Shown here piece by piece: positions 137 through 46,901 of a DNA stretch of 64,000 nt. Within the stretch, counting starts at the first letter, position 1. The number at the start of each line of letters is the position of its first letter. Source of the DNA: Rufibacter radiotolerans (lineage in GTDB: Bacteria > Bacteroidota > Bacteroidia > Cytophagales > Hymenobacteraceae). The stretch lies in contig NZ_CP010777.1 of assembly GCF_001078055.1 (NCBI RefSeq), forward strand, positions 3,439,001 through 3,503,000, written 5' to 3'. Both the position numbers and the translations under genes were made by a program. The notes under the pieces are model-generated. The model was not told where the DNA came from and ran no database searches. It worked only from the letters and a program-made list of their open reading frames with translations.

Positions 137-892
137 CTAAACAATTTTGGCTAATGAGTTGGCTACCCCGGGCTCCTGCTCGGTCACGTGCAAGCCGCAC
201 TCTTTTTTACTGCTGTCTTCCCACCACCACCGGCCGGCCCTGAAATCTTCGCCGGGCTGGATGGCCCGGGTGCAGGGCGCGCACCCAATAGAGATGAAGC
301 CTTTGTCATGCAGGTGGTTGTAGGGGATGTTGTGCTGTTTGATGAAAGCCATCACCTCCTCAGTAGTCCAGTGCAACAACGGGTGGAACTTGATGAGCTG
401 GTTGCCCTCGTCCCACTCAAAGGCGGGTAGGTCGCCTCGGCCCGGGGAGTGCTCGGCCCGGAGGCCAGTCACCCAGACGGCATTGCCGGCCAAAGCCCTT
501 TTAAGCGGCTCCACCTTTCTGATGAAACAGCAGTCTTTGCGGTTCTGGGTAGACTCATAGAAGGAGTTGGGCCCTTTGGCGTGCACAAACTCCTCCAGCA
601 AGGCATTGTTGGGGTAGTAGGCCTTGATGCGGGTTTGGTAGGCATCATTGGTTTTGTTCCACACCGAATAGGTTTCTGGGAAAAGGCGGCCGGTGTCCAG
701 CGTGAAAATGCTGATGGGCAGCGCGGTTTCCAGAATCTGGTGGGAGATCACCTGGTCTTCAAAGCTGAAGCTGGAGGAAAAGGTCACTTGGCCCGGGTAG
801 CGGTCGGCCAAAAAAGCCAGCACCTGGTCTAGGGTGAATCCTTCGGTCTCCTGGATAAGTTGAGACACATGCTCTTGTTGCGAAGAGGCCAT
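137..892 (-). CDS. cysH: Phosphoadenylyl/adenylyl sulfate reductase
   Basis: Assimilatory reductase that turns APS or PAPS into sulfite in the cytoplasm. A PP-loop fold with substrate motif SSFSFEDQV near the N terminus is followed by a CC pair (about residue 121), a CxxC (GCAPC, about 205) and the catalytic ECGLH near the C terminus. The CC plus CxxC set binds a 4Fe-4S cluster and is typical of the APS-using type, so APS is the likelier substrate (inference). The open frame extends 19 codons further upstream with a hydrophobic, AT-rich stretch, but ATG at 892 (MASSQQEHV) gives the normal family length of about 251 residues and leaves the upstream stretch as leader RNA. First structural gene of a leader-cysH-cysD unit. 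Confidence 0.93.
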   Translation of the reverse strand: MASSQQEHVSQLIQETEGFTLDQVLAFLADRYPGQVTFSSSFSFEDQVISHQILETALPISIFTLDTGRLFPETYSVWNKTNDAYQTRIKAYYPNNALLEEFVHAKGPNSFYESTQNRKDCCFIRKVEPLKRALAGNAVWVTGLRAEHSPGRGDLPAFEWDEGNQLIKFHPLLHWTTEEVMAFIKQHNIPYNHLHDKGFISIGCAPCTRAIQPGEDFRAGRWWWEDSSKKECGLHVTEQEPGVANSLAKIV

Positions 893-973
893 GACAAGAA
901 AATAGGTAATAAGAAAAAAGAATATAGTAAAGGGGTACCCAATGGGCACAAGAAGAAATGGGCTGCCAGTTTC

Positions 974-1015
974 TTAGCAACAACAGCAGCAGGAGCTGCA
1001 ACAGCAGAAGCGCAT
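974..1015 (-). CDS. Cysteine-rich leader peptide upstream of cysH
   Basis: A 13-codon frame, ATG to TAA, reads MRFCCCSSCCCCC: eight of thirteen residues are cysteine and the other two in the run are serine, the cysteine precursor. It lies on the same strand as cysH, 81 bp upstream of its start and about 60 bp downstream of a good promoter. The position and composition are those expected of a ribosome-mediated attenuator that senses charged Cys-tRNA. Cysteine-rich upstream frames controlling sulfur genes are established in mycobacteria; whether this one is translated here is inference. The RNA after it can form competing stems: leader-end GCTGC with GGCAGC just after the stop, or GTGCCC with GGGTAC further on, followed by a T-rich stretch. 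Confidence 0.72.
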   Translation of the reverse strand: MRFCCCSSCCCCC

Positions 1016-1073
1016 TCGCTCTATGTGGGATGAGTAGACCATGTAGTCTTTTATCTAGCTGTTAAGATGATCG

Positions 1074-1104
1074 CAAAGATAGGAACCGATTTTTCTAAAC
1101 CAAA
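1074..1104 (-). promoter_or_regulatory. Bacteroidota-type promoter for the cysH leader operon
   Basis: On the minus strand a -7 box TATCTTTG (1081-1074) fits TAnnTTTG exactly, and a TTTG (1104-1101) lies 19 bp upstream as the -33 box. Transcription would start near 1067, about 50 nt before the leader ATG and about 175 nt before cysH. Confidence 0.7.
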
Positions 1105-1224
1105 TTTTCCCTATCAATTTAGTAGAGATTTAAAATAAAAATTTAGCAGCCAAAGAAGCTACTGCTTTCATATCTCATACCCAATCATGAGTTGTGTTAA
1201 CGGATTCACAAGCAACACTGTTCC

Positions 1225-46791: not shown

Positions 46792-46901
46792 TGCTTATCA
46801 AGAAAGACGGAGGGATTAGGCCCTGTGATGTCTTAGCAACCCAATTCAGTTGGGTGCTACTTCCTGCCCACCACGCCCGCCGTGCTGGGGGAGATGAGTG
46901 A
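46792..46901 (+). ncRNA. SAM-I (S-box) riboswitch
   Basis: Leader RNA binding S-adenosylmethionine. Conserved parts are seen in order: CTTATCAAGA (P1 5' side), AGAC-GGAGGGATTAGGCCC-TGTGAT-GTCT (P2 with the GGAGGGA...GGCCC core), TAGCAACC, a P3 hairpin ACCCAATT/AGTTGGGT, GTGCTACTTCC, a P4 hairpin, and GATGAG closing P1 (CTTATC pairs with GATGAG). It ends about 80 nt before metH, so SAM should lower metH expression. No clear T-run terminator follows, so control of translation or a weak terminator is possible. Confidence 0.9.

Follow-up and report, generated by a model that had tools for sequence, protein, structure and literature searches.

A cysteine-rich leader upstream of cysH in Rufibacter radiotolerans: a candidate cysteine attenuator, possibly gated by SAM-I riboswitches in related Cytophagales

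The cysH gene of Rufibacter radiotolerans is preceded by a short reading frame that is crowded with cysteine codons and very probably (we would put it at roughly 0.83) serves as a cysteine gauge for cysH and cysD, and probably also for cysN, cobA, cysJ and cysI, by ribosome-mediated attenuation. Cysteine-responsive attenuation is strongly supported by comparison between genomes, namely by Cys runs that recur in unrelated surroundings, by tests of the reading frame, and by compensatory changes in a hairpin (P3) over the end of the leader. The best reading of the material is that cysteine attenuation would be gated by SAM in many relatives and ungated at the cysH gene studied here. To our knowledge, little has been written on how Bacteroidota control sulfur assimilation. 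If our reading is true, these bacteria gain a cysteine gauge, an aptamer and a ribosome-stalling leader can be combined into one two-input device that recurs before several genes of one genome, and the more than 100 short ORFs read in this analysis acquire a meaning.

All positions refer to the window, i.e. the whole stretch of 64,000 nucleotides that was analysed (Table 1). As first read, the leader ORF extends from 1015 to 974 on the minus strand (ATG CGC TTC TGC TGT TGC AGC TCC TGC TGC TGT TGT TGC TAA), with its eight Cys codons split by two Ser codons. The sequence agrees with the first-pass annotation in placing this 13-codon ORF between a promoter and cysH, on the cysH strand, with 81 nt between its stop codon and the cysH ATG at 892. 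That annotation had, however, assumed a 13-residue peptide behind a 5' leader of about 50 nt. Another in-frame ATG is present 27 nt upstream of the inner one, and because this start (1042) and its spacing are kept in 14/14 same-genus loci, with an alignment free of indels between the two, while the 5' UTR ahead of it differs in length between loci, the leader is probably the 22-residue ORF 1042-974. The promoter consists of a -33 element TTTG (1104-1101), a 19-nt spacer and a -7 element TATCTTTG (1081-1074), and follows the pattern TTTG-N19-TAnnTTTG, which we take to be the Bacteroidota-type consensus. The distance from the -7 element to ATG(1042) is 31 nt, and the predicted TSS would leave a 5' UTR of ~25-30 nt. 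Farther upstream, at ~1221-1262, the window contains a short dispersed repeat of the CCGTTTT..TTTTCAGAAAACAGG type, with 15 more matches in the genome.

Table 1. Features of the cysH leader region, with positions in the window
Feature	Position	Strand	Remarks
Leader ORF, probable full extent	974..1042	-	22 codons and stop, MVYSSHIERMRFCCCSSCCCCC; predicted start
Leader ORF, inner ATG	974..1015	-	MRFCCCSSCCCCC, then stop; found in 14/14 same-genus loci with cysH
Promoter, Bacteroidota type	1074..1104	-	from sequence and alignment; predicted TSS
cysH, phosphoadenylyl/adenylyl-sulfate reductase	137..892	-	NCBIfam NF002537 and TIGR02055 above cut-off; first gene after the leader
Hairpin P3	962..981	-	spans last Cys codon and stop; GUUGCUA...UGGCAGC in own genome
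Hairpin P2, GCAGC-UCCU-GCUGC	986..999	-	inside the leader, holds the serine codons; from foldings
5' UTR segment with AACAGCTAGA	1048..1063	-	can pair with first Cys codons (TCTGCTGTT); from foldings
Hairpin P4, GUGCCC-AUU-GGGUAC	935..949	-	10/14 foldings by our reading; no adjacent U tract
Imperfect palindrome CTACTAAATTGATAG, candidate operator	1111..1125	-	just upstream of the -33 element

Downstream of cysH, and beyond the window, the genes cysD, cysN, cobA, cysJ and cysI follow on the same strand (cluster L292). All six genes of the cluster are named by NCBIfam, cysJ with a score under its curated cut-off. The intergenic gaps from cysH to cysI measure, in order, 15, 319, 342, 3 and 252 nt, and neither a TAnnTTTG promoter nor a Cys-rich leader was found in the gaps of this cluster. 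Because of the three wide gaps (cysD/cysN, cysN/cobA and cysJ/cysI), we go no further than calling a single transcript from cysH to cysI plausible.

Within the genus the leader accompanies cysH without exception. Sixteen genomes were compared, including that of R. radiotolerans; 14 of them possess cysH, and all of these have the leader, always with at least seven Cys (peptides range from MRFCCCSSCCCCC to MRFCCCSTCCCCL, MRFCCCSSCCCCR and MRFCCCSSGCCCC). A small ORF with at least four Cys in eight residues precedes cysH in 14/14 same-genus loci, compared with 0.7% of dinucleotide shuffles; among the genes of the window it was found upstream of only 1/55, and that one, which reaches six Cys, is probably cysH itself. 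Chance, or a CTG-type repeat, as the source of the Cys run was excluded by the shuffle, window-gene and in-frame tests. The leader block is almost invariant as DNA within the genus, and the genus alone therefore cannot separate a constraint on the peptide from one on RNA or DNA. A search for MRFCCC-type patterns across the family yielded 34 matches in 31/204 genomes, 14 from the genus and 17 from the rest of the family; 30 of the matches were assigned a locus and all of these were read. Behind the 16 matches outside the genus, among them MRFCCCCICC in L131, inspection by eye revealed no cysH, and they were taken as chance. R. radiotolerans itself has 49 further clusters of four Cys codons; two lie outside ORFs of at least 120 codons, and neither of these two precedes a sulfur gene.

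Beyond the genus, cysH of this type occurs in the family as a whole in 139/204 genomes, and 90 of the 126 family hits outside the genus were fetched. The first-pass annotation had named a conserved Cys-rich ORF in front of cysH in relatives as support, and such an ORF is found at 53/90 of these loci with at least four Cys in eight residues (1.2% of shuffles), in addition to the complete set within the genus; with at least three Cys in eight the number rises to 73 of the 90 (15% of shuffles). The further expectation that Cys is kept while the remainder varies holds across genera and target genes, but not within the genus, where nearly everything is conserved. Between genera the peptides, compared by eye, share little except the Cys run (e.g. 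MQTYNITSATRMASSGTATASVAFVPTSALLQQNCCCCCCMC and MNLIITPRATAAAPQQGLFGSNSLCCCCMPMRRACC). This bears on the possibility that the ORF makes a functional Cys-rich peptide, binding metal or taking part in redox reactions, that acts in trans. Eight Cys among 22 residues and the neighbourhood of sulfur genes would suit such a peptide, but beyond the Cys run the peptides look unrelated not only between genera but also between the targets of one genome, what is kept is their place behind SAM-I aptamers and before sulfur genes, and an NCBIfam scan of ten leaders gave no match; we regard a trans-acting peptide as extremely unlikely.

Similarly, in other families a Cys-rich small ORF is present at 12/24 cysH-first loci with at least three Cys in eight residues (6% of shuffles) and at 6/24 with at least four (0.7%), these 24 loci being our own pick from 80, with L182, of similar gap, left out. 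Three Flavobacterium loci (L199, L207 and L210) apparently carry two leaders in tandem, each followed by an intrinsic terminator, and in L207 and L210 the tandem leaders are rich in both Met and Cys (MMMCMCC, MMMMCC).

The Cys codons of some leaders also differ from those of ordinary genes. TGT, the less used codon, makes up 193/267 Cys codons in g6 cysH-linked leaders vs 10/105 in nearby long ORFs (Fisher 6e-30), and 74/120 vs 19/60 in g3 cysH-linked leaders (2e-4); for coding usage we counted long ORFs in the flanking sequence retrieved with the loci, after a crude filter on frame. The leader of R. radiotolerans displays no such bias (3/8 TGT vs 29/117 of the Cys codons in the window). The synonymous excess in leaders is modest, with 189/540 single-change codons vs 23% if all changes were equal.

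At most cysH loci of the family the leader is not alone. Outside the genus, a SAM-I aptamer (Rfam RF00162, 64-81 bits) is present at 67/81 family cysH loci scanned; the remaining nine of the 90 (L283-L291) were outside the Rfam scan, and their SAM core was seen by pattern. At all 67 loci the aptamer is followed by an ORF containing two or more Cys. The 14/81 loci without aptamer belong to 13 g3 genomes and to one second cysH copy; the 13 g3 loci have no leader either and speak against the cysteine gauge. No RF00162 aptamer was found by Rfam at the window cysH or at four more same-genus cysH loci.

To see this composite independently of cysH, we surveyed 94 SAM-I loci from 15 families of the order, 30 of them from seven genomes of the family and 24 + 40 from an order sample, the 40 hand-picked outside the own family; L325, L345 and L346, truncated by contig ends, were left out, as was one family row of 31 for which there was no locus. 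Targets were named by N-terminal motifs with NCBIfam and Pfam spot checks (metY, metH, sulfite reductase, cystathionine-synthase-like). A leader, defined by a start 3-16 nt behind the aptamer and at least three Cys in eight residues (0.26% of shuffles), was found at 22/28 metY loci, the other 6/28 being without a Cys run. It was also found at 8/8 cysH loci, six of them preselected, since six of the seven family genomes had been chosen for a known cysH composite and only 2/8 cysH rows were unselected. The single sulfite reductase locus has a leader (1/1), as do 14/28 loci of an unnamed class, which includes two more sulfite reductases as well as amino-acid permeases, NhaC-like transporters, RimK-like ligases and a NifS-like desulfurase (sub-cut-off partial matches or by eye). 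No leader was found behind SAM-I at metH (0/26) or at cystathionine-synthase-like genes (0/3). TonB-dependent-receptor-like genes (by eye) follow a SAM-I aptamer and a Cys-containing leader in L367 and, more weakly, in L314, possibly pointing to uptake of sulfur compounds.

A test that does not presuppose an ORF gave a run of at least three TGY codons between +30 and +230 in 42/94 SAM-I loci, and in 42/42 of these the first ATG or GTG at +4 to +16 shares its frame with the run, with no stop codon in between. Because another frame is also open over the leader in 59/114 cases, open frames alone are weak evidence. Leader start codons stand 7-14 nt from the end of the aptamer (mode 9), next to helix P1. 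The P1 end is of the TATAAA type in 42/45 leader-bearing vs 18/49 leader-less loci; a strict split, with TATAAA only where there is a leader, was dropped, the data giving only a trend (42/60 vs 3/34, Fisher 6e-9). Outside the order the composite was seen at 2/22 loci of the class and at 0/27 elsewhere in the phylum (20 loci hand-picked; L398, partial, left out), and one more such composite precedes cysH in Sediminibacterium (L148).

R. radiotolerans itself possesses both arrangements. At its metY locus (L306, C1:2298606-2298718, minus) a SAM-I aptamer is followed by the leader MENQAKATSYNAGSRQTALVTGSTIHFSISTTSMRMCSMRGCCCRF, a 46-codon ORF that ends in CSMRGCCCRF, starts 9 nt after the aptamer and lies upstream of the metY-type gene; with no more than three consecutive Cys, it came to light via its aptamer. 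The second aptamer of the genome, at 46792-46900 (+) of the window (72.9 bits), lies 82 nt ahead of a gene of metH type (Pfam S-methyl_trans) without a Cys leader and serves as a control for the composite. In related Cytophagales SAM would gate translation of the leader at its start beside P1, and Cys-tRNA would be sensed in addition. We lean, with moderate confidence, towards a riboswitch-gated attenuator across Cytophagales that turns on sulfur-acquisition genes (cysH and its neighbours, sulfite reductase, metY, transporters) only when SAM and cysteine are both short, with metH controlled by SAM alone; the leader at the cysH gene studied here may be the same module after loss of the aptamer (or before its gain), with a palindromic operator instead. 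The natural comparison is between leaders of the same kind with an aptamer, as in many relatives, and without one, as at this cysH.

The end of the leader coincides with a conserved RNA structure. P3 is formed by pairing of the leader's final Cys codons and stop with the segment just downstream (UGUUGUUGCUAA with UUAGCAAUCAACA). Across 13 relatives 96.9% of cells are paired, 4 cells are changed on both sides and the covariation score is 0.181, values each reached by 0/500 shuffles, and pairing drops to 24-74% when the partner is slid along. Pairs with a both-side change number only two, a value reached by 58/500 shuffles, and the four further pair types are matched by 296/500. Where the last Cys codon has been replaced by Phe (two genomes) or Leu (one), the downstream partner has changed too; the replacement by Arg in one genome (G005) is uncompensated. 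Because F, R or L stands here in 4/14 leaders while the bases mostly follow the pairing, the last Cys appears from the alignment to be expendable as an amino acid. In R. radiotolerans the foldings give a shifted seven-pair version of P3, and the pairing of GCTGC in the leader codons with GGCAGC behind the stop, noted in the first pass, survives in this form, as a local, shifted version of the conserved hairpin over the leader end.

P2 and the hairpin between the 5' UTR and the first Cys codons come from foldings of a sequence that hardly varies, and have no support from covariation. A fold that would exclude P3 is at most hinted at by such foldings. Of the two serine codons inside P2, AGC is invariant and the next one is Ser, Pro or Thr across the 14 genomes, so that the serine pair seems to fit an RNA stem (GCAGC:GCUGC) better than the additional serine or O-acetylserine sensing suggested earlier. 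One consensus folding contained a long-range pairing between the leader start and the cysH start (CAUGG/CCAUG).

Since P3 covaries, two types of replacement at the last codon keep to the pairing and the nucleotides are nearly invariant within the genus, the block could also be only a structured RNA or a protein-binding site, with an untranslated ORF whose TGY repeats serve for pairing. The SAM-I linked relatives speak against this: their TGY runs are without exception in frame and open, and their start codons lie at a near-constant distance behind the aptamer. Moreover, the runs mix TGT with TGC and are enriched in TGT, and their surroundings are unrelated. We hold an RNA-only block to be very improbable.

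For cysteine attenuation we propose the following course. A ribosome would start on the leader soon after transcription begins. With plentiful Cys-tRNA it would reach the stop codon and open P3, and expression would be attenuated; when Cys-tRNA is short it would stall in the first Cys cluster, leaving the later Cys codons free to pair with the downstream segment as P3, and the genes would be on.

By a rule that asks for a stem plus a U tract, no intrinsic terminator was found between leader and cysH at the 14 same-genus loci (0/14). Attenuation of cysH-cysD through Cys-tRNA, as proposed in the first-pass annotation, stands by comparison (Cys runs, frames and P3), but the accompanying terminator/antiterminator pair is unsupported in this genus: its GTGCCC/GGGTAC hairpin, here P4, is not directly followed by the U-rich stretch that had been described. 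Intrinsic terminators occur in 14/69 family composites (12.5% of shuffles) and in 3/26 other SAM-I leaders (8%), neither clearly over chance. Outside the family, 4/13 hand-listed leaders have one vs 0% of shuffles. A canonical terminator follows the leader in the Flavobacterium loci L199, L207 and L210 and in the MAG locus L139, and these would represent transcription attenuation at cysH within the same phylum.

Alternatively, a variant of the same explanation could operate by translation, with the Cys codons covering the first gene's start until a stalled ribosome exposes it. Such translational attenuation is reported for mycobacterial polycysteine ORFs (PMC13236596) and would agree with the lack of an intrinsic terminator at the own locus. 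However, in a folding model with the footprint of the stalled ribosome kept unpaired, the accessibility of the cysH start is 0.58 vs 0.54-0.56 without it, and the Cys codons have their conserved partner immediately after the end of the leader, ~60-70 nt before cysH. Simple masking of the cysH start is unsupported, as the modelled accessibility barely shifts, and we judge this translational variant rather unlikely, if still a serious candidate.

Because the genus has no intrinsic terminator by our rule and access to the cysH start hardly changes, Rho-dependent termination is our preferred guess for the final step of cysteine attenuation; it would take place in the 81-nt spacer, which is G-poor (7-15%), with P3 protecting. 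In the same model a late stall makes the spacer more open (from 0.40 to 0.53), a result that lends no support to a protecting role of P3 there. The excess of C over G in the spacer falls inside the range of 25 control regions, so that it argues only weakly for a rut site, and a Rho-site signature from C/G bias was discarded as unexceptional.

Finally, a DNA-binding protein that recognises the palindrome ahead of the promoter could be the main regulator, with the leader reduced to a secondary role or to a relic. The palindrome (CTAYTAAATTGATAG) precedes the promoter in 14/14 same-genus loci, one core base differing in two of them, and reaches the full half-site score in all, compared with 0.4% of shuffles. 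At least 11/12 half-site matches are present in 6/14 other Bacteroidota cysH loci (3% of shuffles), of which 14 loci 13 are without an aptamer found, and in 1/20 SAM-I linked g6 loci. In the 13 g3 genomes, which belong to another genus, cysH has no leader and stands behind genes for an Rrf2 regulator and a DUF2061 protein (identities by Pfam for one of each), and 11/12 sites were seen, without a shuffle control, in 6/13 of these loci (L233, L239, L241, L244, L245 and L246). The own-genome Rrf2 homologue L442 (48% identity) lies between dnaA-like and peroxiredoxin-like genes (by eye), and the palindrome is absent there. A regulator at the palindrome would explain neither the Cys run across families nor P3, and a relic leader would have drifted; we consider this form of control improbable. 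In the 13 g3 loci (L233, L235-L246), RNA control has perhaps been replaced by a protein regulator.

An experimental test of a mycobacterial polycysteine leader was reportedly carried out by Canestrari in 2020. In print, Cys leaders are on record for Actinobacteria (PMC1262725), and an attenuation mechanism is described for the polycysteine ORFs of mycobacteria (PMC13236596). The mycobacterial ORF resembles the present leader in being short, in having its Cys run near the stop, in lying before sulfur genes and in having no obvious terminator. It is, however, leaderless and from another phylum, whereas the Rufibacter leader has a predicted ~25-30 nt 5' UTR and a covarying hairpin over its end, and many relatives carry SAM-I in front. 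The uORFC-8-2 motif upstream of cysS in Rhodobacterales likewise has tandem Cys codons in a uORF, held in the first stem, but it has an intrinsic terminator at its end and belongs to cysS (PMC8632094), whereas the present leader belongs to sulfate assimilation and has no terminator in the genus.

Leader-peptide attenuation in Bacteroidota has been described as Bacteroid-trp (RF01692), with clues in Flavobacterium psychrophilum (PMC9723704); these cases concern tryptophan, or amino acids that are not named. Neither RF01692 nor Rfam generally gave a match in the own cysH leader region. SAM-I (RF00162), not found at own-genus cysH, abuts in relatives a Cys-rich ORF instead of a structural gene. 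Riboswitch-controlled uORFs are known from Mycobacterium tuberculosis, with B12 at ppe2 (PMC11260477) and the Mbox at pe20, where Rho acts downstream (PMC12810186). As in the composite, an aptamer there controls a short upstream ORF, but in the abstracts of these papers the ppe2 and pe20 uORFs are not presented as amino-acid sensors, whereas the composite ORF ends in a Cys run, a second possible input. The literature searched, with few subscription papers and no supplements, contained neither a Bacteroidota cysteine leader nor a composite of SAM-I and Cys leader. Another short frame of R. radiotolerans, the intergenic ORF MDSCKTYLVNRFCCCCAVKEGGKYFCV at L082 (C1:3113500-3116000), is located 244 nt upstream of what appears by eye to be an ABC-F-like ATPase gene; genes of this kind often have leader ORFs.
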